DNA from: Promethearchaeia archaeon
Lineage (GTDB): Archaea > Asgardarchaeota > Lokiarchaeia > Sigyniarchaeales > SOKP01
DNA length: 64,000 nucleotides
Assembly (NCBI GenBank): GCA_029856045.1
Contig: JAHQWG010000028.1
Span: 266,547-330,546, forward strand
Direction of reading: 5' to 3'
A program made the translations under genes and the position numbers. The notes under the pieces were generated by a model. That model was not told the DNA's origin. It saw nothing but the letters and a program-made list of their open reading frames with translations, and ran no database searches. The stretch's first letter is position 1. Each line of letters begins with the position of its first letter. Positions 37,989 to 63,398 of this stretch are shown piece after piece.

Positions 37989-38360
37989 TTAAGATAAAAA
38001 TTCTTTTATAACTTCTTTGAATTCCTTGAGATTTAATGGTTTTGAGAGCGATTTATTAAACCTGGCACTGGCAAATACGGATTCCCTATTACCTTCAACT
38101 GGAGAAGAAGAGGCGGCAATGATTGGAGTCTCTTTAAATTTATCTATTTTACGGAGTTCTTTACAAATATCAATTCCTTTTAATTTTGGAAGGTTATTAT
38201 CTAAAATAATAAGATCAGGATTCTCAGATTTTATCATTTCTAAGCCTTTATCTCCCCGAGTTTCATAGAAAACTTTAATATTTGGGATTTTCTTGAAGAT
38301 AGCTTTATATAATTTGATATTGGTTTCGTTATCTTCGATAATAAAAATTTTTTTTGTCAA
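37989..38360 (-). CDS. Stand-alone response regulator receiver domain
   Basis: A 123-residue CheY-like receiver. The acidic pair is EDN near residues 9-11, the phosphoryl aspartate is in LIILDNNLPKLKG near residue 53, the switch serine in ASSSP near 83 and the lysine in SLSKPL near 107. It has no output domain. Stand-alone receivers act as phosphorelay intermediates or bind targets directly. It is related to the receiver at 46281 and to the relic at 45827, and the multi-PAS kinases at 40-46 kb are plausible partners. Confidence 0.88.
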   Translation of the reverse strand: MTKKIFIIEDNETNIKLYKAIFKKIPNIKVFYETRGDKGLEMIKSENPDLIILDNNLPKLKGIDICKELRKIDKFKETPIIAASSSPVEGNRESVFASARFNKSLSKPLNLKEFKEVIKEFLS

Positions 38361-39416: not shown

Positions 39417-40055
39417 TTATTTTATTGAGTTTGTTGCGAGCATCTCATCAAGGGCTTTAGTTATTTCTTTACATGATTCAAGCATCATTTCTGTGTAATT
39501 CACAACTGTTTGCTCAGATAGATTTCCTTGTTTTTTCCCTTCTAAAATTAATTCACAAAATCCTTGAATAGTATTAATTCCGCTTCTAATTTGCATAGTA
39601 AATGATTCTAATGGCAAGACTTCTTCCTTTTTCATATATATCTCATTTATTTCACTAAAAAATTTCTTAAATGATTTTATATCATCTGATAAAATTTGTT
39701 TGTTTCCTAATTTTAGGAATTCCATTTCAATTCTTCGGAAATGAATTATTGGAATTAGCGGATATGCTACATCCCGAAGAATTATCAGTGAATATAATTG
39801 TTTCCCTCCCCGAGCGCTAGGATCTTCAACTTCTATTTTACAGATCTGGGAATAAAATTGACTATAATCCAAAATGACAAATTTATTTTTAGTATTTAAT
39901 GCATCTCTCAAAAGATTTTTGACAAATTGCTCTTCCTTAAGTGGAAAAGATGAATATAAAGTTCTGGGACCCAAAATTTGATCATATTTTCCAATAATTA
40001 AAATAAATTGATATTTATCCAATCCTTCTTTAAAATTTAGGTAATCATCAGACAT
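39417..40055 (-). CDS. Longin-like domain fused to a degenerate HisKA helix pair
   Basis: A 212-residue protein. Residues about 10-135 form an alpha/beta domain with IIGKYDQILGPRTLYSS near 18-34, the G-P turn seen in longin-like domains of Asgard GTPase-linked proteins. Residues about 145-205 resemble a histidine-kinase dimerisation domain: ESFTMQIRSGINTIQGFCEL aligns with the SHELRTPLNAIIGFSEL box, but the phospho-accepting histidine is methionine and the adjacent proline is glycine. There is no ATPase domain. It lies 57 bases after the hybrid kinase gene at 40113 and could dimerise with that kinase as a regulator. The fusion is unusual; the longin assignment is moderate. Confidence 0.6.
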   Translation of the reverse strand: MSDDYLNFKEGLDKYQFILIIGKYDQILGPRTLYSSFPLKEEQFVKNLLRDALNTKNKFVILDYSQFYSQICKIEVEDPSARGGKQLYSLIILRDVAYPLIPIIHFRRIEMEFLKLGNKQILSDDIKSFKKFFSEINEIYMKKEEVLPLESFTMQIRSGINTIQGFCELILEGKKQGNLSEQTVVNYTEMMLESCKEITKALDEMLATNSIK

Positions 40056-40112: not shown

Positions 40113-42419
40113 TTAATTAGTCTCACTAATTTTTTGTAATTGTTCTTCAGTTAATGTGATTTTAGGAATTGTAAAAAAGAATGTGGTTCCTTTATCTAAT
40201 TTACTTTCAAACCAAATTTCCCCTCCATGAAGATTTACTAGTCTTTTCGTTAATGCTAAACCCAACCCTGTCCCCTGAACCTGTTTTATCTTATCACCTT
40301 CTACTCTTCCAAATTCTCTAAAGACTACATCGTAATCCTTCTTTGCAATACCAACACCAGTATCTTTAATTTGAAATTCCCAATGATCGATTCTTTGAAT
40401 ACCACGAAGTGAAACATTTCCTTGCTCTGTAAATTTAAATGCATTACTTAAAATATTATATAATATTTGTTTGAAACGAATAGGATCAGCAGTTAAATAA
40501 TCGTGTTCATCTATACCTTTAACTTTAAATTCCAAATTTTTGTTTGAATATAATGGTTTTATTACTGCATTAATTTCTACAATAAATTCATTTAAATCAA
40601 ATTTCTGCATATTTAATTTTAATTTTCCAGCTTCAATTTTTGAGATATCTAAAATTGAATTTATTAAACTGAGTAAATGATCTCCTGCAGAATTAATATC
40701 ATTTATAAAATCTTGTTGATCTACATTTAAATTACCATATGAACCATCTAATAACAACTGTGAAAAACCTAATATGGCATTCAACGGTGTTCTTAATTCA
40801 TGAGACATTGTAGCCATAAATCTTGATTTAATATCCAAGGAAGCAAGTAATTGATCAAATAACATTTCTCGATTCTTTTCAAAATTTTTTCTATCAGTAA
40901 TATCGGAAAAAAAAGATTGAATAATTATTTGATCTTCAATTCTTAATATGGTTGACGTAACTTCTACATACAATAGTTTTCCATACTGTGCTTTTATCAA
41001 TGCTTCGACTTTATTAGGAATTGATAAATCATAAATACCTTCTTCGTAATGTTTTTTAACTATATCTATAAATTCTGGGTCAAATAACTCGTATATATTG
41101 TGTGTTAATAATTCTTCTCGATTATAGTTGAATAAATTCTCTGTTTCTCTATTAGCCTTTAAAATTTCACCCTTTTGATTTAATAGAAAAATTCCCAATG
41201 GAGCTGTTTCATTAAGCGCATCTATTTCTTGTAATGTTTTCTCTAATTTTTTTATTTCTTTCTCAGACTGTTTTTGAGCGGTAATATCTTGTATCATCAA
41301 TTGTACAATATTTTTCTCCCCCATTTTAAATAAAGAAGATTGTATATTCACCCAAGCAATGTTCCCATCCTTTTTCTTAATTTGAATTTCAAGAGGCGTT
41401 GGAGCATTTCCATCATATATATCTTTATATTTTTCTTTTATATCTGAAAGACTTGATGAAGGAAGAATAGGTGTTTCATAATATCTTTTATTGATTAACT
41501 CTTCCTTTTTATATCCAAATATTTTTTCGGTAGTATTATTGCAATCAATAATCACACCTTCCAAATTAAGTAGGATTATGGAATTTGGAGAATTTTCAAA
41601 TAGATATCTGAATTTTTCTTCTGACTCTTTTTTCTTTTTTTCCGTCTTCTTGCGTTCCGTAATATCTTCGCAATTAGTTAGGAGTACATTTTTACCACCC
41701 AACTCTATTAAGTCTATATTCATTAGAGCTGTATAAATTGTGCCGTCTTTTTTTTTCAGTTTTACTTCGAAATTATAGACCTTATCAGTTTCATGCAATT
41801 TATTAAGCAATTTTTTACGTTCATTTGGATCAACATAAGTAGAAATAAGTCTATGAGTGTTTAACTCATCTAAGGTAAAACCTGTTATTTCTTGCATTTT
41901 TTTGTTCATAGCAAGAATATTACCCTCAAGGTCAGCAATCCCAATCCCTATTGGAGAAGAATTAAATAAAAATTGATATTTTTCCTCAGATTTTTGTATC
42001 TGGGTAGTTAATTTTTCCATTTTAATCCATGTTCGATTTCTTTCAATAGCATATTGGATTGAACGTAATAATAGATTACTATTAATCTCATTTTTAATCA
42101 AGTAATCTTGAGTTCCTGCTTTAACCGCTTCTACACCTATTTGAAAACCATCATTTACAGTTAGAACAATAACAGGAATATTTTGAACCTTTTCACAAGT
42201 CTTAAATACAGTATTAAGTCCAAAACTATCTGGAAGGTTTATATCTAAGAGAATTACGTCATAATTTCTATTATCAATATGGTTAAATCCTTTCTTAAGG
42301 GTATCAGCCCAAACCAAATTAAATTTTAAATTTTTAATCTTTTTTAGCATTTCTTCTATTAATCGAACATCACCAGGATTATCTTCGATTAACAGAATAT
42401 TAATTAAATTATCTAACAT
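40113..42419 (-). CDS. Hybrid receiver-PAS histidine kinase
   Basis: A 768-residue soluble kinase: an N-terminal receiver (about 5-122, aspartate in LLDINLPDS near 59), three PAS domains (about 142-260, 268-385, 398-512), HisKA with MSHELRTPLNAILGFSQLL near 537-555 and an HATPase_c domain (N-box ILYNILSNAFKFT, G1 KDTGVGIAKKD, G2 GTGLGLALTKRL) near 640-765. All catalytic motifs are intact. There is no membrane helix, so signals are intracellular or come by phosphotransfer to its receiver. It follows the Rcp1-like regulator gene (192-base gap) and precedes the longin/HisKA-like gene. Confidence 0.92.
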   Translation of the reverse strand: MLDNLINILLIEDNPGDVRLIEEMLKKIKNLKFNLVWADTLKKGFNHIDNRNYDVILLDINLPDSFGLNTVFKTCEKVQNIPVIVLTVNDGFQIGVEAVKAGTQDYLIKNEINSNLLLRSIQYAIERNRTWIKMEKLTTQIQKSEEKYQFLFNSSPIGIGIADLEGNILAMNKKMQEITGFTLDELNTHRLISTYVDPNERKKLLNKLHETDKVYNFEVKLKKKDGTIYTALMNIDLIELGGKNVLLTNCEDITERKKTEKKKKESEEKFRYLFENSPNSIILLNLEGVIIDCNNTTEKIFGYKKEELINKRYYETPILPSSSLSDIKEKYKDIYDGNAPTPLEIQIKKKDGNIAWVNIQSSLFKMGEKNIVQLMIQDITAQKQSEKEIKKLEKTLQEIDALNETAPLGIFLLNQKGEILKANRETENLFNYNREELLTHNIYELFDPEFIDIVKKHYEEGIYDLSIPNKVEALIKAQYGKLLYVEVTSTILRIEDQIIIQSFFSDITDRKNFEKNREMLFDQLLASLDIKSRFMATMSHELRTPLNAILGFSQLLLDGSYGNLNVDQQDFINDINSAGDHLLSLINSILDISKIEAGKLKLNMQKFDLNEFIVEINAVIKPLYSNKNLEFKVKGIDEHDYLTADPIRFKQILYNILSNAFKFTEQGNVSLRGIQRIDHWEFQIKDTGVGIAKKDYDVVFREFGRVEGDKIKQVQGTGLGLALTKRLVNLHGGEIWFESKLDKGTTFFFTIPKITLTEEQLQKISETN

Positions 42420-42611: not shown

Positions 42612-43070
42612 TTAAGTTATTTCATGCCCATCAGGTGGTAATTTGACAATCGAAAACCAGAAATCTCCAATAGATTTCACCACTTTTATAAATTGTACCA
42701 TACCTATAGGTTTGGAGATATAACAGTTCGCATGTAAATTGTATGTTTTTATAATATCCTCCTGAGATTTAGAAGTTGTTAAAACTACGACCGGAATTCG
42801 CCTTAAATCTTTATCTTGCTTAATTTCAGCTAAAACCTCACGTCCGTCTTTCTTAGGTAGATTTAAATCAAGTAAAATTACATCAGGTCGTGGTGAATTA
42901 TTAAATTTTCCTTTTTTATATAAAAAATCTATTGCTTCTATACCATCCAATGCTACGTGTAATTTATTGGCAATTTTACATTCTTTAAGAGCTTCTTTTG
43001 TCAAACGCACATCTCCTGGATTATCTTCAATTAGCAAAATTTCTATCATTTTATATTTTTGTTTTGTCAA
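42612..43070 (-). CDS. Rcp1-type response regulator
   Basis: A 152-residue stand-alone receiver of the Rcp1 subtype found beside phytochrome-like kinases. Features are EDNPGDVRLTKEAL near residues 13-26, phosphoryl aspartate in LLDLNLPKKDGREVL near 67, TTSKS near 97 and YISKPI near 117, followed by the short Rcp1-like tail. It lies 47 bases downstream of the 874-residue multi-PAS kinase gene, whose HisKA box SHDLQEPL is the kind usually paired with Rcp1 regulators. The pair is therefore a likely cognate two-component system. Confidence 0.9.
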   Translation of the reverse strand: MTKQKYKMIEILLIEDNPGDVRLTKEALKECKIANKLHVALDGIEAIDFLYKKGKFNNSPRPDVILLDLNLPKKDGREVLAEIKQDKDLRRIPVVVLTTSKSQEDIIKTYNLHANCYISKPIGMVQFIKVVKSIGDFWFSIVKLPPDGHEIT

Positions 43071-43117: not shown

Positions 43118-45742
43118 TTATTTTTTTATTGGAATAGTAAAATGAAATGTTGAACCCTTTCCAACTTCTGATTCAACCCAGATTTTTCCATTATGTCTTT
43201 CTATAATTCTTTTACATAGGGCTAAACCTATTCCTGTGCCAGGATATTCAGATTTTGAATGTAAACGTTGAAAAATAATAAAAATACGATCAAAATATTC
43301 TGGATCTATGCCGATCCCGTTATCTTTTACTGAAAATTGCCAGTTTTTTTTAATCTTTTTCGCCGAAATATGTATACGCACGGGATCTTCACTGCGGAAT
43401 TTTATTGCATTACCAATCAAATTTTGAAACACTTGCAGAAGTTGTGTTTTATCTACCATTACATTTGGTAAATAATCATAGGTTATCTTTACATCTATTT
43501 CTCTTATAATCTTATGTAGATTTAAAAGAACATCTTTTAAAACCTCTTCACAGTTAGTAAATTCAAAAGGATTACCACGAGTCTGAATTCTTGAATATTC
43601 TAATAAATTTTCTATAAGAACTTTCATATTATTTGCACCATCTACAGCATATTTAATGAACTCATTTGCATCCTCATCTAATTTATCTTTATAACGCTTT
43701 GCTAGGAGTTGGGTATAACTTGCCACCATTCTTAATGGTTCTTGTAAGTCATGAGATGCAATATAAGCAAATTGTTGTAATTCTTCATTGGAACACTTTA
43801 AATCGGCCATAATTTGTTGTAATTCTTTTTCTTTCTTCCTGCGCTCGGCAATATCTCGGAAGATAAGGATAACACCTATAATATTACCTTTATCATTCTT
43901 TATTGGTGCGCCACTATCAGCGATCGGTATTTCCTTTCCATTTTTCGCTATTAAGATAGTATTATTCGCCAGACCGACAATAAATCCTTCTCGAAGGACT
44001 CTAGATACAGGATTTTCAACAGATTTACGCGTTTCCTCTTTAATGATATTAAAAATATATTGTATGGGTTTTTCTATAGCTTCTTCTAACTTCCAGCCAG
44101 TCAAAGACTCGGCAATTGGATTTAAAAATGATACCTTACTTTTTATGTCAGTAGTAATTACTGCATCCCCAATACTTCTGAGTGTTGTGGAAAGCCATTC
44201 TTCACTCTCTTTTAATCTTTCTTCGGATTTTTGGAGCTTTTGAGTGCGCTTCTCTACCAATTCTTCAAGATGATCACGATATTTTCTCAATTCCTTCTCC
44301 GTTTTTTTACGCTCGGTAATGTCTATAAAAGAAGCCATCCTACCGATATCGTTCCCATCCTGATCCGTCACAACGGAAGTGGATACTTCAACAGGAAACT
44401 CCGTGCCGTCATTGCGTTGCGCAATAAATTCTTCAGTCTCGCCTTTTACCTTGTCAATAATCGTTTGCACATCAGAAAACCTCTGTACTACCTCTCTGGG
44501 AATTAATTCTCTAGCAGATTTACCGAGTAAACCTTCCTTGCTTTCATATTCAAACATTCTCGCAAAAACTGGATTGACATACGTTATTTCTCCTTTAAGG
44601 TTCGTTATGATAACGCCGCTCACTGAAGAATCTATCGCATCGTAAGCAACGCTTAACTCTCGCTCCAACTTCTTGCGCTCGGTAATATCTTTTATAATAA
44701 ATGCAATATCTATTGTCTTACCATCAGGTCCCTTTACAATAAAAGTGGTTAGTAAAATGGGAATTCTCGAACCGTCTTTTCTTATATATTCTTTTTCATA
44801 CGTTTCAGGATTTCCTGTTTTTATGATCCTTTCTATTATTTTGTATTCATATTCTTCGTACTCCTCCGGAGTTATATCTTGAAATTTTTTTCTGGCTAAT
44901 AATTCCTCTTTTGAATAACCCGTTAGCTCGGAAAAAGCATCATTAACATCCAATAGCATTCCATCCAAATTAGCATAGGCTATGGCATCTTTTGAGGAGT
45001 TGAATATCCCATTGAAACGTTCTTGAACCTTTCCATTCTCCTCCTCTGCTTTCTTTCGCTCCGTAATATCCTGTCCAACTCCTTGAATCCCAATTGCCTT
45101 TCCATCAGCATCTTTTACTGCAGTAACATTCCATGAGATCAAAATCCTTTCTTTTTTACCCTTTTTCCAATAATATTGCTCAAAACCTTCTTGACTCCTA
45201 TTTGGATCTATTATAACCTTCTGCCTTACGGGTTCAGCCTTTTCTAATTCATTTTTCTCAAGCATTGATCTTATATCATTACCAATCATCTCCCCTTCTT
45301 CATATCCTAATATTTTACAGGCGTATGGATTCATTAAAGTTACTCTCCACTCATCATCGTATGCCAAAACGATGGCATTGGCATTATTTACTAGCATTTT
45401 GTAGCTATACAATTCTGCCTTTATCTTCTTACTCTCAGTAATATCTCTGAAAACTTCAATAACTACTGGATTACCATAAAAATCTTCTACGAAAAAAGCG
45501 TCAATTCCAAAATATTTTGTTTCTTTGGTTGAAGGAAATGTTGTAATTTTTTCGAATCTCATCCTACGTTGTTCTATTGTCAAAGAGTTTTCAATAGGAC
45601 AAGATTCACAAGGTTTTGAGCGCTTAAATAAAGTATTATAGCAGTTTTTTCCAACCAAATTCTTTCCGAATTCTTTGAGAGCATTTTCATTTGCAAATAA
45701 TATCTTATTCTTCTGAGAAATAACCAAAATTGGATCTTTCAT
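43118..45742 (-). CDS. Multi-PAS histidine kinase
   Basis: An 874-residue kinase with five PAS domains, a short coiled coil (near 480-510), HisKA (FAYIASHDLQEPLRMVASY near 640-660) and HATPase_c (N-box FQNLIGNAIKF, G1 KDNGIGIDP, G2 GTGIGLALCKRI). The first PAS carries a CY-x13-CESCP cysteine motif, possibly for metal or redox sensing. G+C and codon use are higher in about 44220-45380 than in neighbours, pointing to transfer from another archaeon or bacterium. The frame continues upstream to an ATA at 45799 that sits eight bases after AGGTGA; that would add IATQDLKKSLEELGLIFSN, a natural PAS linker, so the real start may be 45799. Confidence 0.9.
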   Translation of the reverse strand: MKDPILVISQKNKILFANENALKEFGKNLVGKNCYNTLFKRSKPCESCPIENSLTIEQRRMRFEKITTFPSTKETKYFGIDAFFVEDFYGNPVVIEVFRDITESKKIKAELYSYKMLVNNANAIVLAYDDEWRVTLMNPYACKILGYEEGEMIGNDIRSMLEKNELEKAEPVRQKVIIDPNRSQEGFEQYYWKKGKKERILISWNVTAVKDADGKAIGIQGVGQDITERKKAEEENGKVQERFNGIFNSSKDAIAYANLDGMLLDVNDAFSELTGYSKEELLARKKFQDITPEEYEEYEYKIIERIIKTGNPETYEKEYIRKDGSRIPILLTTFIVKGPDGKTIDIAFIIKDITERKKLERELSVAYDAIDSSVSGVIITNLKGEITYVNPVFARMFEYESKEGLLGKSARELIPREVVQRFSDVQTIIDKVKGETEEFIAQRNDGTEFPVEVSTSVVTDQDGNDIGRMASFIDITERKKTEKELRKYRDHLEELVEKRTQKLQKSEERLKESEEWLSTTLRSIGDAVITTDIKSKVSFLNPIAESLTGWKLEEAIEKPIQYIFNIIKEETRKSVENPVSRVLREGFIVGLANNTILIAKNGKEIPIADSGAPIKNDKGNIIGVILIFRDIAERRKKEKELQQIMADLKCSNEELQQFAYIASHDLQEPLRMVASYTQLLAKRYKDKLDEDANEFIKYAVDGANNMKVLIENLLEYSRIQTRGNPFEFTNCEEVLKDVLLNLHKIIREIDVKITYDYLPNVMVDKTQLLQVFQNLIGNAIKFRSEDPVRIHISAKKIKKNWQFSVKDNGIGIDPEYFDRIFIIFQRLHSKSEYPGTGIGLALCKRIIERHNGKIWVESEVGKGSTFHFTIPIKK

Positions 45743-46280: not shown

Positions 46281-46649
46281 TTAGACAATAACATTTTTGA
46301 CTGTTTCCCTAAAATCGTTAATATTTATTGGTTTTGCAATGTAAGTATCGAAACCTGCTTTCAATATACGTTCTTTATCACCTTTCATCGCGAAAGACGT
46401 GACAGCAATAATTGGAATGTTTTTATATTTTTCAAGTTTACGAAGTTCTTTACAAATATCGATTCCACTCATATCTGGTAGTTGAATGTCTAAAATTATT
46501 AGGTCTGGATTATCTGACTTTAGAGATTCAAAAGCTCGGGCACCATGCGTTTCTGCTACAATTTCAATATCAAGCATTGTATTTAGGACTGCTTTAAACA
46601 ATTTCATGTTTTTTTCATTATCTTCCACAAGAAATACTCGTTTTTTCAT
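46281..46649 (-). CDS. Stand-alone response regulator receiver domain
   Basis: A 122-residue CheY-like receiver with acidic residues EDN near 10-12, phosphoryl aspartate in LIILDIQLPDMSG near 54, threonine in VTSFA near 82 and lysine in YIAKPI near 104. It is the intact relative of the relic at 45827 and of the receiver at 37989. No output domain is attached, so it would act as a phosphate shuttle or bind a target protein. It is divergent from the RHH-HisKA-receiver gene at 47077, with a 427-base gap containing repeated ATAACAAAT sites. Confidence 0.9.
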   Translation of the reverse strand: MKKRVFLVEDNEKNMKLFKAVLNTMLDIEIVAETHGARAFESLKSDNPDLIILDIQLPDMSGIDICKELRKLEKYKNIPIIAVTSFAMKGDKERILKAGFDTYIAKPININDFRETVKNVIV

Positions 46650-47076: not shown

Positions 47077-47937
47077 ATGAATAATAAGAAAACTGAAGAG
47101 ATGGAAAAATATGAAAAAATGACTGGCAAACACGCAATTTGGCGTGGTGTAATAACTGAAGGATTTAAAAAATGGCAACGAGGAGAAAAAATTTATGATA
47201 GATTTAAGGAGAGAATAGCTCTATATGTAGCTAAAGAAACTAAAGAAGAATGGCAGAATTTCATAAATAATTCAAAATATACTTCTGTTTCTAAGCTTGT
47301 GAGAGATGCAGTAAATAATTTCATTGAAAAAAAATTAAAAGTAATAGATTATAAGAATTATAGTAAAGATAATCAGCTTAGAGATCTTTCAGATATCTCA
47401 CATGTTTTAAAAGAAGCATTAACTTCAATAAAAGGTTTCTCACAATTATTAATTGAAAATTATAAGGAAGAACTCAATGAGGAAATCATTTTAAAAATAA
47501 AAGAAATTTTTGATAAAAGCATCTTCCTTGAAAACAAGATTAATGAATCTTTAGAATATTCTCAAACTAAAAAATCACAATACGACATTTTATTAATTGA
47601 AGATGATATTTCAACAATAAAATTATTAACATCATTTTTTGAAAGGAAAGGTTATAGTTGTAAAGGTGTCATAAGTGGTTCTAGAGGATTGGATGAATTG
47701 AAGAGAAATATTCCAAAAATAATTTTATTAGACATTATTTTACCTGATATTAATGGATTTGAAGTTTGCAAAATAATAAAATCTAATAAAGAATATCAAA
47801 ATATTCCCATCTTTCTATTAACTGCTGTATCAAGTCTAAAAGTTGAGCATCTTATTAAAAAAGCAAAAGTAGATGGTTATATCTCAAAACCTTTTGATTT
47901 TTCGGATTTTAATATAATATTGGAATACTTACATTAA
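47077..47937 (+). CDS. RHH - HisKA-like - receiver regulator (paralogue 1)
   Basis: A 286-residue protein with a rare architecture. An N-terminal conserved segment (TGKHAIWRGVITEGFKKW, residues 16-33) leads into a ribbon-helix-helix-like region (KERIALYVAKETKEEWQNF, then VSKLVRDAVNNFIEKK, about 44-86). Next comes a HisKA-like helix pair with SHVLKEALTSIKGFSQLL, histidine at 109, but no ATPase domain. A complete receiver (about 168-286) has E175-D176-D177, phosphoryl D219, T249 and K271. It probably takes phosphate from a separate kinase and changes DNA binding. Its 3' end is four bases from that of the kinase gene at 47941, and a close paralogue lies at 50212. Confidence 0.8.
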   Translation: MNNKKTEEMEKYEKMTGKHAIWRGVITEGFKKWQRGEKIYDRFKERIALYVAKETKEEWQNFINNSKYTSVSKLVRDAVNNFIEKKLKVIDYKNYSKDNQLRDLSDISHVLKEALTSIKGFSQLLIENYKEELNEEIILKIKEIFDKSIFLENKINESLEYSQTKKSQYDILLIEDDISTIKLLTSFFERKGYSCKGVISGSRGLDELKRNIPKIILLDIILPDINGFEVCKIIKSNKEYQNIPIFLLTAVSSLKVEHLIKKAKVDGYISKPFDFSDFNIILEYLH

Positions 47938-47940
47938 TTT

Positions 47941-49947
47941 TTAATCTTTTAAAATGGGAAGAGAAAAATAAAATTTACTTCCTCTATTTCTTCCTTCTGA
48001 TGCCATCCAGATATTTCCCTCGTGTAAATCAATAATCTTTTTCGCAATATATAGACCGAGCCCTGTACCCTCAATTCTAACATCCCAACCTTGACCATAT
48101 CTTTCAATTTTTCCAAATTGTTTAAATAATTGATTCTTTTCCTCAGCGGAAAACCCAATTCCATTATCTTCTATTGAGATTATGAAAAAGTTAGATTTTA
48201 CTTCAGAAAAGATTTTAATTTCTCCTCCAGGAGGAGTGTAATTAATTGCGTTTAATAATAAATTTGAAAAGACTTCATAAATCCGCTGTTTATCAAAAGT
48301 TGTAATTAAATTATTATCAATATTTAAGGAAATAGATTGGTTTCTCAGCTCTAACACAGCTTGCATTTCTTTTAAGCAGGATTTGATCAATTTTGATAAA
48401 TTTCCTTGTTTTAAAATTAATTTTAATTGTCCAGATTCTAATTGGGATGATTCTAGGAGAGAATTAACTATATTATCAAGGCGCAGACATCCTTGTTTAA
48501 TTTCTTTTAAAATGGATATTGTCTTATTATCATATTTCTCTTCAAATTTTGTTAATAAAAAGTCAGAGAACCCCTTAATTGAGACAAGAGGAGTTTTCAA
48601 TTCATGGGAAGTTCTATTTAGTAAATTGGTTTTAAATTTATTTATTTCACTTAGTCGTATATTTTGCTCCTTTAAATTTTTCTGAATTTGCCATCTTTGT
48701 TCTTCAACCTTAATGGCACCACAAACTAAGGACAAAATCAAATGTTCTTGGTGTGAAATAGCAGGATTTTCTCTTTTTAAAATACAAATAAAACTATTAA
48801 ATTTATCTTTAGACTTAATTAATCTTCCAAATCCTCCTTTTATGTTGTATTTAATAATAAAAGGATCAGTTTTTGCATATTGGGTTTCATTTAGATTTAT
48901 AAATGTTTGTATAATATTCTGTTTAAGCTCGAATGTTTCATTTGTAAAATAATTCTTTTTAAATTCTTCCTTATTGCAATTAAAATTATTATCATCACTA
49001 GAAATGATTTGATATATTTTATTTCCATTTTGCACCCTTTTTCGAATATATAATACACTTTCTGCTTTACTCAATTTCTTTACTGTTTGAATTAGAGTTT
49101 TAATATTCGATTGGAAATCTGGTGTAAACTTTAAAAAACTTAAATTTATTTCATAAATTAAATTTTCATAAGTCTTTCTTTCATTAATATCTTGATAAGT
49201 TGTTTGAACATAAATATTATTTCCGAATTTTATTAAAGAGCTCTGGAGACTTACCCAAATCTTTTGTCCATCTACATTTAGTAATTCAACTTCAATAGGA
49301 CTAATTACTCCTCCTTTAATTATAGTTTCAAATCGATCTTTAAGTAGCAGTAAAATTTCTTGAGGATATATATCAAGTTGGTTCTTAGTTTTACCAACAA
49401 TTGTATCCTTTCTATATCCAAATAATCGTTCCGTTGCAGAGTTACAATCAATAACTCTTCCTTTTAAATTTGCTAAAATGATGGCGTAGGGAGAATTTTC
49501 AAATAAGAATCGATATTTCGCTTCAGATTCTATTAATTTTTGCTCAGTTTCTTTACGTTCAGTGATTTCTAACACAAATTCAACTGCTCCAATAATATTA
49601 TCATTATTATCTTTCACTGGAGAAGCTTTTACCTTCCATACCCTTCCATCGGGAGTAGTTTGTTCTGCTTCATGAGATTGCCTTGTTTCAATAGTTTTCA
49701 GCACAGGGCAATTAGCACATGGTGCATTTCTCTGATGCCATATCTCATAGCAATAGCCACCAATTAATTTATCAGTTGTTAGACTCACAGATTCAGAAGC
49801 GGCTTTGTTTGCCCACAAAATTTTTAATTCGTTATTATAATATAATATAAGCTCAGAAATACTGTTCAAAATAGGAGAGTTAAAAGTAATTTTAAGATTT
49901 CCTTCATTCTTTGAACTCGCATTATTTTCGAATTTTTGATTTTGCAT
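47941..49947 (-). CDS. PAS-PAS histidine kinase with cysteine-motif sensor
   Basis: A 668-residue soluble kinase. The first PAS (about 25-130) contains a CY-x11-CANCP motif near residues 67-83 that may bind a metal or sense redox state; a second PAS (about 140-260) follows, then a GAF-like region (about 270-420). HisKA is RTSHELKTPLVSIKGFSDFLL near 445 and HATPase_c has the N-box NLLLNAINYT, G1 EDNGIGFSAE and G2 GTGLGLYIAKKI near 560-665. It is flanked by two RHH-HisKA-receiver genes: tail to tail with one (47077) and divergent from the other (50212). They are the obvious phosphotransfer partners. Confidence 0.9.
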   Translation of the reverse strand: MQNQKFENNASSKNEGNLKITFNSPILNSISELILYYNNELKILWANKAASESVSLTTDKLIGGYCYEIWHQRNAPCANCPVLKTIETRQSHEAEQTTPDGRVWKVKASPVKDNNDNIIGAVEFVLEITERKETEQKLIESEAKYRFLFENSPYAIILANLKGRVIDCNSATERLFGYRKDTIVGKTKNQLDIYPQEILLLLKDRFETIIKGGVISPIEVELLNVDGQKIWVSLQSSLIKFGNNIYVQTTYQDINERKTYENLIYEINLSFLKFTPDFQSNIKTLIQTVKKLSKAESVLYIRKRVQNGNKIYQIISSDDNNFNCNKEEFKKNYFTNETFELKQNIIQTFINLNETQYAKTDPFIIKYNIKGGFGRLIKSKDKFNSFICILKRENPAISHQEHLILSLVCGAIKVEEQRWQIQKNLKEQNIRLSEINKFKTNLLNRTSHELKTPLVSIKGFSDFLLTKFEEKYDNKTISILKEIKQGCLRLDNIVNSLLESSQLESGQLKLILKQGNLSKLIKSCLKEMQAVLELRNQSISLNIDNNLITTFDKQRIYEVFSNLLLNAINYTPPGGEIKIFSEVKSNFFIISIEDNGIGFSAEEKNQLFKQFGKIERYGQGWDVRIEGTGLGLYIAKKIIDLHEGNIWMASEGRNRGSKFYFSLPILKD

Positions 49948-50211
49948 ATTTTCTAACTAATTAATATTTATTCAAAAGAATCAAATGAATAATTTTAATA
50001 AAAATTAAACTTAGAAGGTTATTTTTGCTAATAGCATAAAGAAAATAATAAAAGAAGTATATTAAATTAAGCATCATAAAGTTAAAATTGGAAAAATAAG
50101 ATTAAATTTTGTGCTAATAATAAAAAAACTTATATTATAATTTGTGATAATAATAATCTAGATATGTTATAAATACAGTGAATCCTTCCTTTTTTATTGG
50201 TGATTTCAATT

Positions 50212-51072
50212 TTGAATAATGAAAAAAAAAATAGTGAAATGGAACAATATGAAAAAGAGACAGGAAAATATGCTGTTTGGCGTGGTATCATAACTGAAGG
50301 ATTTAAAAAGTGGAAAAGAGGAGAAAAGATTTATGATAGAGATAAGGAGAGAATATCACTCTATATATCGGAAGAAACTAAAAAAAAATGGCAAAATTTT
50401 ATTGAAAGTAGCAAATATTCTTCAATTTCAAAATTGATAAGAGATGCTATGGATTTTTTTATTAATGAGAAATTAAGAGGAGGTATTGATGAAAAACTTA
50501 AAAAATCAAGACCTTTTAAATCAATTACTGATATTTCCCATGATTTAAAAGAGGCTTTAACTACCATAAAAGGATTTTCACAGTTATTGCTTAATAACTA
50601 TAAGGATGATATAAAAGAAGATGTATTATCAAAAATTAAGGAGATTTTTAATAAAAGTATATTTCTTGAAAATAAAATAAAAGAAGTCTTGGAAAAAGGA
50701 GAAAATAGAAAGACACAATATGACCTTTTATTAATTGAAGATGACCCATCGACTATAAAATTATTAACCACGTTTTTTGAAAGTAAAGGTTATTCTAGTA
50801 GAGGGGTAATTAGTGGTTCTAAGGGAATAGAAGAATTAAAAGTAAATGTTCCAAAATTAATATTATTAGATATAATATTGCCAGATATAAATGGATATGA
50901 TGTTTGTAAAATTATAAAATCTGATGAGAATCTTAAATATATTCCAGTTTTTTTCTTAACGGCAATTCCAAGTTCAGAAGTTGAGAAAAAAATTAAATTT
51001 GCTGGTGCAGATGGATATATTTTGAAACCATTTGATTTTAGTGATTTTGAAATTTTATATACATATCTATAA
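50212..51072 (+). CDS. RHH - HisKA-like - receiver regulator (paralogue 2)
   Basis: A 286-residue paralogue of the 47077 product, similar over its whole length. It has TGKYAVWRGIITEGFKKW near 18-35, RHH-like KERISLYISEETKKKWQNF and ISKLIRDAMDFFI (about 45-85), HisKA-like SHDLKEALTTIKGFSQLL with histidine at 110, and a receiver with EDD near 176, phosphoryl D220, T250 and K272. I choose TTG at 50212: it gives the same N-terminus and length as the paralogue and lies eight bases after GGTGA; TTG 50197 and GTG 50200 lie in or before that site. It is divergent from the kinase at 47941. The receiver and HisKA-like histidine look intact. Confidence 0.8.
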   Translation: MNNEKKNSEMEQYEKETGKYAVWRGIITEGFKKWKRGEKIYDRDKERISLYISEETKKKWQNFIESSKYSSISKLIRDAMDFFINEKLRGGIDEKLKKSRPFKSITDISHDLKEALTTIKGFSQLLLNNYKDDIKEDVLSKIKEIFNKSIFLENKIKEVLEKGENRKTQYDLLLIEDDPSTIKLLTTFFESKGYSSRGVISGSKGIEELKVNVPKLILLDIILPDINGYDVCKIIKSDENLKYIPVFFLTAIPSSEVEKKIKFAGADGYILKPFDFSDFEILYTYL

Positions 51073-51219: not shown

Positions 51220-52527
51220 ATGGTTATAGGCATAGCATTATTTAGTTGGGATAAGAAGATGGGTCCGGTTTTAGAGATTAAACATCCTGAAAATCTTGAT
51301 TTATCACAAAATTTAATTAATAAAATATATATGACTCATGCTTATAGGCAGGAAAATCAAAATGAAGAGTTAATGGAAATTAATCTGGAGAATAAAATTA
51401 TACTTAGCTACTGTGATATGTCTAAAGTTGCAAAATTTGGGTATGAAATAATTATTCTTATTGTTCATGAGAAGGAGAAAATACATCTTAAAAATTTAAA
51501 ATCCAAATTATTTGAATTTGCGAGAGAAGTGTTAAATAAACCTAAAATTGAGAGACATAAGTATTTTTTTGAAAATCTCGATTTGTTTTTTAAAGAAACA
51601 TTAAAGAAAAAGATATTATTAGTTGGACGAGCAGCTACAGGAAAATCTAGTATTAAGCAAGTTATTTTTGAAGGAAAGATGCCACAGGAGTTATTATCTA
51701 ATCCCCTTGAGCCAACTCGTGGTTTAACACCCTCTGTTTATTCATGGTTAGATCTGGATTTGGGTATTTTCGATTCAGCTGGTCAAGAACTGGATTATTT
51801 ATTAGATGATAAAAATGAACAAACCTTAGCATTCGAAAATACTGATATTATAATATATATGTTTGATTACCTAACGTGGGTTGAAAATAACGAAATAATA
51901 ATAAAAGATATCAGAAAAATTTCAAGAATTATTAAACAAGAGTCTTATAATGCTAGGATTATATTATTTCTACATAAAATTGACTTAATTAAGGAAGAAA
52001 ATAGAGAACAAAACATAAAAAATATCCAGCGAGAAATAAAAGAACAATTGAATTTACAGATTTATTTTACAAGTCTTTATCCAAATTTAATTTATAATAC
52101 TTATAATGCATTTTATGAGATTTTGAGTAATTTTTCCAAAGAGACAATTTATTTTAAAGAAATTTTGGATGAAAAAATTAAAGACAGTTCAAAATCTATG
52201 TGTTTTATAACTAATCAAAACAGTAGTATAGTTGTTCAGACAATGTCTAATGATTTCAATTTTAAATTAATCAACCAAATTCATAGATTAATTGCTCAAT
52301 TTGACCAATCATTTGAAGACATGTGTATGAATGATAATATCGATTATATGATACTTTCAAGTTTGAAAAATTTTAATATTATTATGAAATTTCTTAACCT
52401 CTCGAATTATAATCTTAAAAATTTAATTTTAATCTCTGAAATAGCTAGTATCAATCAATTAATAGGATTTTGTGAGGAAATTAAAAGTACTTTGAATAGA
52501 TATTTTTATAAAGATATTCAACTATGA
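51220..52527 (+). CDS. Rag-like GTPase with N-terminal longin-like and C-terminal roadblock-like domains
   Basis: A 435-residue protein. Residues 1-120 are longin-like (IALFSWDKKMGPVLEIKHP near 4-22). The GTPase (about 128-290) has G1 LVGRAATGKSS, switch I EPTRG, G3 FDSAGQE and G4 LHKIDLI; the HKxD form of G4 is a hallmark of Rag/Gtr proteins, and the region around EGKMPQELLSNPLEPTRG also fits RagA. The C-terminal 130 residues follow the Rag roadblock pattern (SSIVVQTMSNDFNFKLINQI, later KNLILISEIASINQLIGF). Nine bases separate it from a second Rag-like gene, suggesting a heterodimer like RagA/RagC in eukaryotic nutrient signalling. No lipid anchor is evident. Confidence 0.8.
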   Translation: MVIGIALFSWDKKMGPVLEIKHPENLDLSQNLINKIYMTHAYRQENQNEELMEINLENKIILSYCDMSKVAKFGYEIIILIVHEKEKIHLKNLKSKLFEFAREVLNKPKIERHKYFFENLDLFFKETLKKKILLVGRAATGKSSIKQVIFEGKMPQELLSNPLEPTRGLTPSVYSWLDLDLGIFDSAGQELDYLLDDKNEQTLAFENTDIIIYMFDYLTWVENNEIIIKDIRKISRIIKQESYNARIILFLHKIDLIKEENREQNIKNIQREIKEQLNLQIYFTSLYPNLIYNTYNAFYEILSNFSKETIYFKEILDEKIKDSSKSMCFITNQNSSIVVQTMSNDFNFKLINQIHRLIAQFDQSFEDMCMNDNIDYMILSSLKNFNIIMKFLNLSNYNLKNLILISEIASINQLIGFCEEIKSTLNRYFYKDIQL

Positions 52528-52536
52528 GAATCTAAA

Positions 52537-54042
52537 ATGGGTAAGAAGATAATTTTCGTTGGACCGCCTGGAGCGGGAAAAACCACCTTAAGAAAAGTTT
52601 TTTTTGAGGGAGAATCTTCTTCAAAATTATTAGATTATGCATTAGAGCCTACACATGGTAAAGAATCAGTTATTCTTCAGTTAAGTGAGGATGTTGGAGT
52701 GTTTGATCTAGCAGGTCAGGAAAATACAAGGTGGTTTGAAACAGATGATAAAGAAATTTTCTACGATACAAAAATTCTTATAGTAGTTATTGATATTACA
52801 ACAGACCATGAAAGAATTATAGAGTTTATTAACAGAGTTATTAAAATTCGAAATGAATTAACACCGACTGCATTTATATATATATTAATTCATAAAATTG
52901 ATTTGGTAGCACAAAAAACAATCAAAGCAATAAAATATAAAATTTCTGATGTTATTGGTGAGGAAAAGTCTGTTAAAATTGCATTTACAAGTATTCAGAA
53001 AGTATATTTCCCCTCAACATTTTCATTGTTTATGGATATCTTAGATACATGTATAAGTGAAAGGGTAACTCCTGAAAGAATTAATTTGAATCTACTTCAA
53101 AACACTATTGATTTTTTATATGAATTACAAAAGAGTGTTTTAATTTCGAAAGATGATTTACAGATAAGATTAAAAGCTCCTGATGAAATGATTGATTCTA
53201 TAAGCAAACTATTGAGTAATAAAGGACATATTGATGTTTCAAAAATAAATGATAGAACAATTTTTAGTTTAACTGATAAAGGTAAAAATTATTTTAAAGA
53301 AATTTTAAATAAATTTTCTTTGCAAAAATTGATTAAATTTGAGAAAGAACATTATAAGACAGAAGCCGCTTTAGGGCCAAAAGTTCCTCCATATTTAGGT
53401 TTTTTGGTGGCTGATAAAGATGGAAAAACAATAATAAATGTAGAAATATTTGACGGAGCTTTTGATTTAATCTTAAATGCTGAAGAGGGAGCAATGAAAA
53501 CTGATTTTGAGTTAATTCCTATGTTCATTAGTGCTTTAGAAAAATTCTCGGAAGAAATAAATATAAAGGAATTAGCGGGTTTTCAATTAAAGGGAACAAA
53601 TATTGAAATGCAAACTTTATCTTTTGAATTATATACAGTTACTCTTTTTATAAATCCAGAAACAAATGTTAAATTTTTTGAATATATAATCAGAGAATGG
53701 TTTGAAAATCTTTTTGAAATACATAGAAAAGAACTTGAGTCTGCTATTAAGACTGGTTATATGACTCAAGTTTCTAAATTAAATCAAGAAGGGAGAGAAT
53801 GGTTGGACAATCTTAACCAAAGATATAAAAATATGGCTATGAACTTGGAGATTTTTGATTTTGATCAAGCTAAAGTACTTTATCATCATATAGATGATAT
53901 ATCTGCAGATATTAATTTTAAATATACTTTAGTCTTACAAAAGATCAAAAAATTAAAAATAGATTTAATGAAGGCGATATTAGTAGAAGATTTTCAAGAA
54001 GTAAAAGAAATTGCCGGTAAGATTCGAGAAATTAAAGTTTAA
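52537..54042 (+). CDS. Second Rag-like GTPase with winged-helix and longin-like domains
   Basis: A 501-residue protein starting directly with the GTPase: G1 FVGPPGAGKTTLRKVFFEG near 7-25, switch I EPTHG near 38, G3 FDLAGQENTRWF near 57 and G4 IHKIDLV (HKxD) near 122. A winged-helix-like segment follows (about 185-250; LTDKGKNYFKEI), then a longin-like domain (about 275-400; YLGFLVADKDGKTI) and a long helical C-terminus. It is the probable partner of the product encoded nine bases upstream. Both proteins carry longin-like domains, the fold of several subunits of eukaryotic Rag regulators. Binding partners are unknown. Confidence 0.8.
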   Translation: MGKKIIFVGPPGAGKTTLRKVFFEGESSSKLLDYALEPTHGKESVILQLSEDVGVFDLAGQENTRWFETDDKEIFYDTKILIVVIDITTDHERIIEFINRVIKIRNELTPTAFIYILIHKIDLVAQKTIKAIKYKISDVIGEEKSVKIAFTSIQKVYFPSTFSLFMDILDTCISERVTPERINLNLLQNTIDFLYELQKSVLISKDDLQIRLKAPDEMIDSISKLLSNKGHIDVSKINDRTIFSLTDKGKNYFKEILNKFSLQKLIKFEKEHYKTEAALGPKVPPYLGFLVADKDGKTIINVEIFDGAFDLILNAEEGAMKTDFELIPMFISALEKFSEEINIKELAGFQLKGTNIEMQTLSFELYTVTLFINPETNVKFFEYIIREWFENLFEIHRKELESAIKTGYMTQVSKLNQEGREWLDNLNQRYKNMAMNLEIFDFDQAKVLYHHIDDISADINFKYTLVLQKIKKLKIDLMKAILVEDFQEVKEIAGKIREIKV

Positions 54043-61153: not shown

Positions 61154-61600
61154 TTATTTTTTAGTAAAAAAATTTTCAATCTCAGGTTTAAATTCTTGGA
61201 ATTTATCAATAATAGTAAAATTCTCATTATTATATCTCTGTATAAATTGTTTTAGTATAAGTTCCAACTTAACTTTGACTTTTTCAACTTGTTTATCAAT
61301 ATTTTTCTTTTTATCACATATAGCATATGCAAGAATGTTTTCTACAGTATTGAAATCTCCCGCTTGAATTGTTCCAGTAATAAAAATAAAAAGAATATCG
61401 CCTGATTCAAGATATTCTAAAGCAGAACCTTGAAATGCTTTTTCTACAAATTGTGTTATAGCAGAAATAAATGATGATCTAAGGTCCTTATGAACTTCCT
61501 TTTTTGTTTTTACCGAGATGTTTTTAATGATATAATTTACAATCGTAAATCCACGAAATATTATACCAGCTTCATATAATTCTTTCAAATTATTAACCAT
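61154..61600 (-). CDS. Hypothetical protein, possibly longin/roadblock-like
   Basis: A 148-residue soluble protein with an alternating helix/strand pattern: helix 1 (LKELYEAGIIFRGF), a central helix with DLRSSFISAITQFVEKAF and a strand pair ending in GDILFIFITGTI, then a C-terminal helical part. The arrangement is reminiscent of small longin or roadblock-type modules common in Asgard genomes, but I cannot assign it firmly. It is divergent from the GTPase gene at 61801, which could be a functional partner. No catalytic motif is visible. Confidence 0.55.
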   Translation of the reverse strand: MVNNLKELYEAGIIFRGFTIVNYIIKNISVKTKKEVHKDLRSSFISAITQFVEKAFQGSALEYLESGDILFIFITGTIQAGDFNTVENILAYAICDKKKNIDKQVEKVKVKLELILKQFIQRYNNENFTIIDKFQEFKPEIENFFTKK

Positions 61601-61800
61601 TCATTACTTTAATTTGTTATAAACATTAACTACTTTGAATAAAATTTTCTCGAATTTAAAATATGAGCCATTACTACATATTTATCTAATTATATTAATA
61701 AATATAAAGGCAAATTTATAAGGAAAAACATTCTTACCTTTGTTAAGTATTACAATTATAATTAAAAATCAAATATAGAGTAAGAATTTGAGAGAATTTT

Positions 61801-62805
61801 ATGCTTGTTGATGAAATTAACATAAAATTAGTCATTTTGGGTGTTGGAAGTGTTGGAAAAACTTCAATAGTAAAATCATTTTTAGATCAAGAGATTCCAA
61901 GAATGTATATTCCAACAATTGGAAGCAGTATTGCAAGGAAGGAATTTATATTAAAAAATATTGCAATTAAAATTAATATTTGGGATATTGGTGGTCAAAA
62001 ATCCTTTAATCCTTTAAACCCAGTATTTTTTACTAATGTTGATGCAGCTTTTTTAGTGTTTGATTTAACTCAACCAAAAGAAACATTACCTAGATTAGAA
62101 ATTGATTATTTAGCAAATTTGTCAAAATATACCAATAAATGTATTGCATTTGTAATTGGAAATAAATTAGATTTAATTTCAACTAAGGAAGAACTAGAGA
62201 ATATTGCAAATTATTATAAAATAAAAAATGTTCCATTAATTCTAACTTCTGCTAAAACTCAAGAAAACCTACTTGAAGCATTTAATTTAATCATATTTAA
62301 CTTTTTGAAGGAATGGGAGAAAGGACTTAAATCTAAACAATTTCAGGGAATATCAAATGAATTCTTGAACTTAATTAACAAAACTGAAAATCAGCTAAAA
62401 GATTTATTTGTAAATTTAGATAAGGTAGACTCAATTATGATTTCAAGTAAATCATTACCTCAATTAACTAAAAAAAAAATTTCATCTTCTACCCCTAATT
62501 TAGATTCTGGAATTGAATTAATTGATTATGGAAGATATAAGAAAAAAATTGAAGAATTTAATAAAATAAAAGATCATATTACTGATTCATTTGATAATAA
62601 ATTAACCATTATAAAAGATGTAATTTCAAGTTTAAAAACAACTCCAATAGATTCACTTATTGATACAATTGACAAAACAATGAAACAATTAAATGATATT
62701 AAAAAAGATTTTGAATTTAACTTAGATTCCTTATTGAGTTTAGAAAAAAGTGAACAAAATGTGAAAGAAGTAAAGAAAGAACTTAAAGAAACTGGAGGCG
62801 AATAA
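61801..62805 (+). CDS. Small GTPase with long coiled-coil C-terminus
   Basis: A 334-residue GTPase. The N-terminal 175 residues carry G1 LGVGSVGKTSIVKSF near 13-27, switch I YIPTIGSS near 39, G3 WDIGGQKSFNP near 61 (Arf-like G-G-Q in an otherwise Ras/Rab-like fold), G4 GNKLDL near 119 and G5 TSAKTQEN near 149. All nucleotide-binding motifs are intact. The C-terminal 150 residues are predicted helical and coiled-coil, with no prenylation motif. A coiled-coil protein gene starts within 27 bases downstream on the same strand, and the two probably form a complex. Confidence 0.88.
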   Translation: MLVDEINIKLVILGVGSVGKTSIVKSFLDQEIPRMYIPTIGSSIARKEFILKNIAIKINIWDIGGQKSFNPLNPVFFTNVDAAFLVFDLTQPKETLPRLEIDYLANLSKYTNKCIAFVIGNKLDLISTKEELENIANYYKIKNVPLILTSAKTQENLLEAFNLIIFNFLKEWEKGLKSKQFQGISNEFLNLINKTENQLKDLFVNLDKVDSIMISSKSLPQLTKKKISSSTPNLDSGIELIDYGRYKKKIEEFNKIKDHITDSFDNKLTIIKDVISSLKTTPIDSLIDTIDKTMKQLNDIKKDFEFNLDSLLSLEKSEQNVKEVKKELKETGGE

Positions 62806-62831
62806 AGATTCCAAAAGAGAAAAAAGATAAA

Positions 62832-63398
62832 ATGGAGCAGATAGAAAGCACAAATGAAATTACAATGGATGAGATTGAAGAATTAGATGAACAACTTATT
62901 AATATTGAGAATTGGGTAAAATTTTTTGATGGAGAGATAAAAACTATAAAAAATGATGTCAGTAATATTCGAGAGCAAATAAAAACTCAAGAAAAAACTA
63001 TAAAAAATGATGTCAGTAATATTCGAGAGCAAATAAAAACTCAAGAAGAAATAATCAATAGTAAATTTAAAGAATTTTCTGAGCAATATTTAATTGATAA
63101 AAAAAATATGACAGCAAAATTACAAGAAATTGAAAGTGAATATGATACAATGAAAATTTCCTTGGCAATAAATGAAAAACACCTATTGGAAAGGTTAAAA
63201 TCGATGATAAGTGCCGAGATAGACATGGCTGTTAAAGGTAAGGAGCAGGAATTACTTATGAATTTGTGGATTGATGAATTAAATCAGATTATTTCGGATT
63301 TTGAAAAATTAAAGAGCATGCATCCAAAGGAATTTTCACTTCGGATTAATGAAATATCAAAAACAGTTGAGATATTTAAACAAAATCTTAAAAAATAG
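62832..63398 (+). CDS. Coiled-coil protein with internal 18-residue repeat
   Basis: A 188-residue helical coiled-coil protein. It contains two copies of TIKNDVSNIREQIKTQEK/E (about residues 38-73) that are nearly identical at DNA level. No enzymatic motif. It lies just after the GTPase gene and is probably its scaffold or effector partner. The ATG at 62832 has a weak ribosome-binding site; an ATT at 62808, in frame and nine bases after GGAGG (62794-62798), is a possible alternative start adding eight residues. Confidence 0.7.
   Translation: MEQIESTNEITMDEIEELDEQLINIENWVKFFDGEIKTIKNDVSNIREQIKTQEKTIKNDVSNIREQIKTQEEIINSKFKEFSEQYLIDKKNMTAKLQEIESEYDTMKISLAINEKHLLERLKSMISAEIDMAVKGKEQELLMNLWIDELNQIISDFEKLKSMHPKEFSLRINEISKTVEIFKQNLKK
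62943..63050 (+). repeat. Tandem 54-base repeat inside the coiled-coil gene
   Basis: Two copies, 62943-62996 and 62997-63050, differ at one base only. Such near-identity shows a very recent in-frame duplication of an 18-residue coiled-coil unit, so the length of this gene may vary between strains. Confidence 0.9.

Follow-up and report, generated by a model that had tools for sequence, protein, structure and literature searches.

Do two adjacent Rag-like GTPase genes from a Lokiarchaeial genome represent a prokaryotic counterpart of the RagA/RagC heterodimer, as an initial annotation had proposed, or do they belong to a signaling system of another kind? The genes lie on a 64,000-nucleotide stretch of DNA from a Promethearchaeia archaeon (GenBank assembly GCA_029856045.1, contig JAHQWG010000028.1, positions 266,547 to 330,546; hereinafter the window), where both open reading frames (ORFs), together with all their domains, are on the forward strand. 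ORF1 (51220..52527, 435 aa) codes for a Rag-like GTPase with a predicted longin–G–roadblock architecture, as assigned by Pfam searches, modeling and fold superposition, and ORF2 (52537..54042, 501 aa) for one with a predicted G–winged helix–longin–helical tail architecture, as assigned by Pfam searches, models and a fold search. The TGA of ORF1 ends at 52527 and the ATG of ORF2 stands at 52537, exactly matching the coordinates and nine-base spacer first reported for the pair. We found that the most informative feature of this locus is one the initial annotation overlooked, namely a conserved linkage of the pair to histidine kinase and receiver genes of two-component systems.

The membership of both proteins in the Rag family is clear. 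Gtr1_RagA (PF04670) is the best Pfam family for each (ORF1: 8e-25, 88 bits; ORF2: 4e-16, 59.6 bits; curated cut-off 22 bits), and sequence searches of the PDB returned RagA, Gtr1, RagC and Gtr2 as the top solved relatives of both. The G1–G5 motifs are whole in the G domains of ORF1 (51601..52134, aa 128-305: GRAATGKS, EPTRG, DSAGQE, HKID, TS) and ORF2 (52537..53058, aa 1-174: GPPGAGKT, EPTHG, DLAGQE, HKID, TS) and are conserved over 29 ORF1-type and 33 ORF2-type alignment rows; both proteins are predicted to be active GTPases. The HKID of G4 and the EPT(R/H)G of switch I had thus been read correctly, and the former is a Rag-type marker: HKxD distinguishes the Rag-like subset among the GTPases of this genome from the Rab/Arf/Ras-like ones with NKxD or TKxD, and the Arf, Rab and Ras controls have NKxD at this position.

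Phylogenetic trees were computed with GTPases from the same genome, its relatives and eukaryotes, and a wider tree adds 25 Asgard Rag-like proteins, the best-scoring PF04670 matches in the phylum. The two G domains fall inside the Rag branch, apart from Arf, Rab and Ras (outgroup branch 98/94 in the wider tree, 95/90 in the earlier tree), as the proposed Rag/Gtr affiliation predicts. They unite in one clade with a third Rag-like GTPase type of about 293 aa from the same loci (hereinafter O3, with O1 and O2 for the ORF1 and ORF2 types; 99/98 in the earlier tree, 100/99 in the wider one), wherein ORF2 is sister to O3; the ORF1/ORF2 clade has so far been seen only in Lokiarchaeia. Eukaryotic RagA and RagC group instead with the other Asgard Rag-like proteins (87/81 in the wider tree), a branch of modest support in G-domain trees that are weak at about 185 columns. 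An approximately unbiased (AU) test rejected the union of ORF2 with RagC (p=0.008) and did not reject that of ORF1 with RagA (p=0.116). The first trees had placed the eukaryotic Rags close to the O1/O2/O3 clade; this was dropped, the closeness having vanished after the other Asgard Rag-like proteins were added. The roadblock is the dimerisation domain of RagC, and ORF2 has none. Because of the tree groupings and the AU test, we take ORF1 and ORF2 to be sister paralogues whose duplication took place in parallel inside the Rag-like branch, and not the RagA/RagC pair. What survives of the initial proposal is an adjacent Rag-branch pair with conserved synteny and attached longin, roadblock and winged-helix modules; its identification as a RagA/RagC counterpart does not.

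Rag-like pairs of ordinary Rag size were seen in other Asgard families (L207:742-4548, minus strand, 358 and 309 aa; L208:1126-3131, plus strand, 362 and 308 aa). Counterparts of RagA/RagC are better sought in these lineages, which group closer to the eukaryotic Rags. At L207 two genes stand between the members of the pair, one for a 265-aa protein and one for a probable degenerate GTPase of 339 aa that ends in a roadblock-like region; all four are co-directional. In the genome under study, a further Rag-like GTPase gene (L001:1468-3507; G000:C3) is followed on the same strand by one for a zinc-ribbon protein whose C-terminus looks roadblock-like by eye.

A search of 227 Asgard genomes (E ≤ 1e-30) recovered the ORF1 type from 44 genomes and the ORF2 type from 33, all within a single order; the relatives bearing names are nearly all Candidatus Lokiarchaeota, Lokiarchaeia or Prometheoarchaeum metagenome-assembled genomes (MAGs). 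Conserved synteny, which the initial annotation had suggested looking for in other Asgard genomes, is evident: the two types are neighboring and co-directional in 17 genomes, which represent seven or more genera within the family of the window's source, with -8 to +37 bp between them where the spacing was measured (16 genomes). In G094 the MAG carries an interrupted copy, and no fusion of the two genes was found in any genome. The ratio of nonsynonymous to synonymous substitution rates relative to the nearest congener (G096) is 0.26 for ORF1 and 0.21 for ORF2, i.e., both are under purifying selection. Because adjacency is kept in 17 genomes and these ratios are low, the association exceeds chance, and a gene set retained in this manner very probably encodes proteins that function jointly. 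A second full-length ORF1-type GTPase, about 49% identical, is encoded elsewhere in the same genome (G000:C34:11828-13114; L056), with neither ORF2 nor two-component neighbors.

The two-component linkage is seen both within this genome and across its relatives. The 13 kb upstream of ORF1 (C36:304553-317591; 38.0-51.0 kb of the window) hold 6 of the 13 receivers and 5 of the 15 HisKA domains of the entire 3.34-Mb genome. Per 100 kb, receiver genes number 7.6 and kinase genes 16.3 at the pair loci of the 17 genomes; the corresponding values for 20 control stretches from these genomes are 0.3 and 0.5. A stand-alone divergent receiver abuts ORF1 in most relatives. The commonest gene order is c3–O3–kinase–kinase–[ORF2–ORF1]–receiver–c4 (c3 and c4 being longin-like proteins discussed below), with a roadblock protein, c7 (2e-10), farther out; single elements are missing in some genomes. 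Even where the pair is split, O1 or O2 alone lies beside two-component genes in 8 of 20 loci. At five other loci (L112, L114, L118, L121 and L122, family f3) the neighbor of the ORF2-type gene encodes an ATPase of an ABC transporter (MacB/LolD-like by eye), and on contigs that extend far enough the next gene codes for one of about 945 aa; here the same GTPase thus has another conserved context.

In the window itself, a HisKA–receiver protein is encoded directly upstream of ORF1 (50197..51072, plus strand, 291 aa; Response_reg 1e-19, HisKA 1.6e-5), and its paralogue lies farther upstream (47077..47937, plus strand). Each begins with a region that resembles a ribbon-helix-helix by eye and continues with a HisKA domain, unaccompanied by an ATPase domain, and a receiver; they may be one-piece phosphotransfer/output proteins. 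The remaining elements are all on the minus strand: a histidine kinase with a HisKA domain and a PAS domain read from the sequence (47941..49947), a stand-alone receiver protein (46281..46649, 122 aa), a multi-PAS histidine kinase with a HisKA domain (43118..45742), a receiver protein (42612..43070, 152 aa), a receiver–PAS–histidine kinase with receiver and HisKA domains (40113..42419), c3 (39417..40055, 212 aa), and another stand-alone receiver protein (37989..38360, 123 aa). Beyond the pair, at 61154-63398, a Ras/Rab-like GTPase with a long helical C-terminus is followed by a coiled-coil protein, with a divergent 148-aa protein lacking a Pfam match upstream.

The domains fused to the two GTPases are complementary. 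The N-terminal domain of ORF1 (51220..51585, aa 1-122), which the initial annotation had not placed, shows a β-β-α-β-β-β-α-α arrangement in the AlphaFold2 model (mean predicted local distance difference test score [pLDDT] about 88), i.e., a longin topology, and its profile resembles the longin-like N-terminus of c4 (hhalign p-value 8e-5, probability 61%). Against PDB sequences the same profile gave no longin or other meaningful match, the fold search having covered only aa 126-429. That segment superposes on RagA, Gtr1 and the Lokiarchaeotal LokiRagO (VIA Z 21.8-23.4) inclusive of the C-terminal roadblock (52138..52524, aa 307-435, α-β-β-α-β-β-β-α; superposed up to residue 429), confirming the RagA-type ending first suggested from the sequence. 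The winged-helix and longin-like domains proposed for ORF2 were likewise recovered. The former (53086..53352, aa 184-272) has three helices and two strands (HHH-β-β-H) in the model, with weak HTH_45, HTH_34 and TrmB Pfam hits in a few homologues. The longin behind it (53389..53754, aa 285-406) was identified from its own model and a VIA fold search, in which the separately modeled C-terminal domain (pLDDT 82.5) matched VAMP7 (Z 11.9), Sec22b (11.2), TRAPP (10.6), Mon1–Ccz1 (10.6) and a Lokiarchaeial longin (8yqg, 10.1) over 123-143 residues, roadblocks ranking lower (Z up to 9.8). A search of its profile against PDB sequences yielded no meaningful match; stand-alone homologues of this longin occur in relatives. 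The models place a helical tail (53761..54036, aa 409-500) at the C-terminus. The profile comparison between the two longins is weak, and we therefore claim no shared origin for them.

The cluster protein c3 links the longin and phosphorelay themes in one polypeptide. Its longin-like N-terminus matches Folliculin in all 11 members (best 2e-4), and a DHp profile of the neighboring kinases finds its C-terminus in 10 of 11 at E < 0.01 (best of 990 shuffles: 0.23), the phospho-accepting histidine being replaced; the c3 profile had no meaningful match among PDB sequences. The protein is strongly conserved (65% mean column identity), often adjoins O3, and occurs in 21 of 58 relatives, close to O1/O2 when the contigs are long enough to tell. 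It could possibly serve as an adaptor between the histidine kinases and the longin/Rag modules. In c4 (e.g., L125:4558-5778 and L095:6223-7452) a longin-like N-terminus is followed by a long coiled coil, an attachment that a 2016 review did not see for Lokiarchaeal longins.

Taken together, these observations are best explained by a phosphorelay that feeds a heteromeric Rag-type switch, an explanation to which we give about an even chance of being right. ORF1 and ORF2 would be a co-expressed Rag-clade pair, born of a duplication inside, or just before, Lokiarchaeia, that most likely acts jointly as a heteromeric GTP switch, although the case for a physical heteromer is evenly balanced. Longin and roadblock modules are in eukaryotes largely separate GTPase-activating protein (GAP), guanine nucleotide exchange factor (GEF) or scaffold subunits (Ragulator, FLCN–FNIP, TRAPP); here, carried in cis, they may provide a dimerising platform beside each G domain, and ORF2 may gain extra docking surfaces from its winged helix and helical tail. 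The GTP switch would probably be the output of the neighboring two-component system: the PAS histidine kinases would phosphorylate the receiver proteins beside them, and either a receiver or the longin–pseudoDHp adaptor (39417-40055), or both, could relay the signal to the GTPases, both the direction of the signal and the identity of the adaptor being our inference. Such logic would resemble that of Myxococcus, in which MglA is acted on by RomR–RomX/MglB and RomR carries a receiver domain. Functional coupling of the pair to the phosphorelay could in our judgment go either way, and the complete chain, from phosphorelay through longin–pseudoDHp adaptor to a heteromeric switch with cis longin/roadblock regulators at one conserved Lokiarchaeial locus, is a tentative proposal somewhat more likely wrong than right.

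Several points count against the phosphorelay-fed switch. The linkage to two-component genes is guilt by association among loci that share ancestry; 12 of the 20 unpaired loci, mostly in families f3 and f4, have no two-component gene nearby, and in the five f3 loci ORF2 adjoins the ABC transporter instead. The longin assignment of c3 rests, for the window's copy, on a Folliculin match below the Pfam cut-off, and its co-occurrence with O1/O2 over the 58 genomes (Fisher p=2e-6) takes no account of relatedness. Where a roadblock would be expected, ORF2 has the winged helix followed by a longin with two C-terminal helices. The frames of ORF1 and ORF2 are in register, so reading the intervening TGA as tryptophan yields one 940-residue chain, which we used as a folding device only, with homologues of both genes in the alignment and no claim of recoding. 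In the resulting model (pLDDT 82.5) the ORF2 G domain (residues 441-612 of the joined chain) matches that of RagC (3llu, Z 19.8). The predicted template modeling score (pTM) is, however, 0.46, with no confident interface, sparse rows for the ORF2 G domain in the alignment and no predicted aligned error; given this low pTM, how the model positions one protein against the other speaks neither for nor against a heterodimer.

Among the alternatives, the one that survives best, though we consider it unlikely, is a heterodimer in the style of Gtr1/Gtr2, joined through the C-terminal domains (the ORF1 roadblock and the ORF2 longin) and governed by nucleotide state only, to which the two-component genes would be unrelated. 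ORF1 does reproduce the G and roadblock body of RagA, roadblock and longin have a common α/β core, the genes are tightly spaced, and a Rag-like operon pair of MK-D1 has a predicted heterodimer, as described in a 2024 study (PMC10933270); yet ORF2 has a winged helix and longin in place of the RagC roadblock, its duplication differs from that of RagA and RagC, and the roughly 25-fold enrichment in two-component genes is left unexplained. Slightly less probable again are two co-transcribed paralogues with related but separate roles, each homo-oligomeric: by its entry title the closest solved archaeal Rag-like structure, LokiRagO (8yl2), is a homotetramer, roadblock and longin domains commonly homodimerise, and several genomes have either gene without the other adjoining, but adjacency with near-zero or negative spacing has been kept over about 50% protein divergence, and the domain sets are complementary rather than identical. 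A general signaling-gene island, in which kinases, receivers and GTPases are exchanged or expanded together while phosphorelay and GTPases stay uncoupled, would suit the variable number and order of kinases between genera and the several unpaired O1/O2 loci devoid of two-component genes, but is improbable in view of the specific, repeated positions (the receiver diverging from ORF1, kinases in tandem at the pair, c3 adjoining O3), the rarity of two-component genes in the control stretches and in this genome otherwise, and the joining of longin-like and DHp-like modules within the single c3 protein.

The phosphorelay-fed heteromeric switch, if the coupling is true, would provide a concrete case of a eukaryote-like small-GTPase switch with a prokaryotic phosphorelay as its input. 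Individual parts of the locus have precedents: for Lokiarchaeia, fusions of GTPases with longin or roadblock domains are already known, as is one operon pair of Rag-like GTPases, and what is new is the two-component context. Longin and roadblock fusions to Lokiarchaeum GTPases are mentioned, after an earlier survey, in Dey 2016 (PMC4917890), which also asks whether Asgard Rag-like proteins offer a handle on archaeal nutrient sensing. For MK-D1, Tran 2024 (PMC10933270) puts longin–G–roadblock, G–longin and G–roadblock Rag-like GTPases on record and models the operon pair as Gtr1/Gtr2-like; the modeled heterodimer differs in joining via a roadblock on both chains. Its authors report no two-component linkage and call it difficult to match GTPases to regulators from gene order, and we found no link between these GTPases and two-component genes in the open-access literature. 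Here gene order does help: kinases, receivers, the longin–pseudoDHp protein, the roadblock protein and three Rag-type GTPases travel together, and this conserved island suggests an input to Rag-like switches that is open to tests on recombinant proteins.

Compared with RagA/RagC and Gtr1/Gtr2 (PF04670; PDB 6s6a, 3r7w, 4arz), the pair has in common the HKxD G domain, the G and roadblock body of ORF1 (Z 22-23) and the encoding of two paralogous GTPases for one pathway; it differs in the extra N-terminal longin predicted for ORF1, in the winged helix, longin and tail that ORF2 has instead of a roadblock, and in G domains that are paralogous to each other and not orthologous to RagA and RagC. LokiRagO (RagA-like GTPase of Lokiarchaeota, released 2025) shares the G and roadblock fold with ORF1 (Z 21.8, 19% identity), but is homotetrameric, has neither longin nor winged-helix modules in the matched body, and names no partner GTPase in its entry title. 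In the longin heterodimers TRAPP, Mon1–Ccz1 and FLCN–FNIP, too, longins act on small GTPases, and the ORF2 longin resembles those of TRAPP and Mon1–Ccz1 (Z 10-11); the predicted longins of ORF1 and ORF2, however, are fused in cis to their GTPases. The proposed logic has a parallel in the MglA–MglB–RomR/RomX system of Myxococcus xanthus, in which the roadblock protein MglB is the GAP of MglA and the response-regulator protein RomR is part of its GEF (PMC9481161): a small GTPase is again under a roadblock protein and a response-regulator-containing regulator. MglA is not of the Rag type and its regulators are separate proteins; the system is a precedent for the logic and not for descent.

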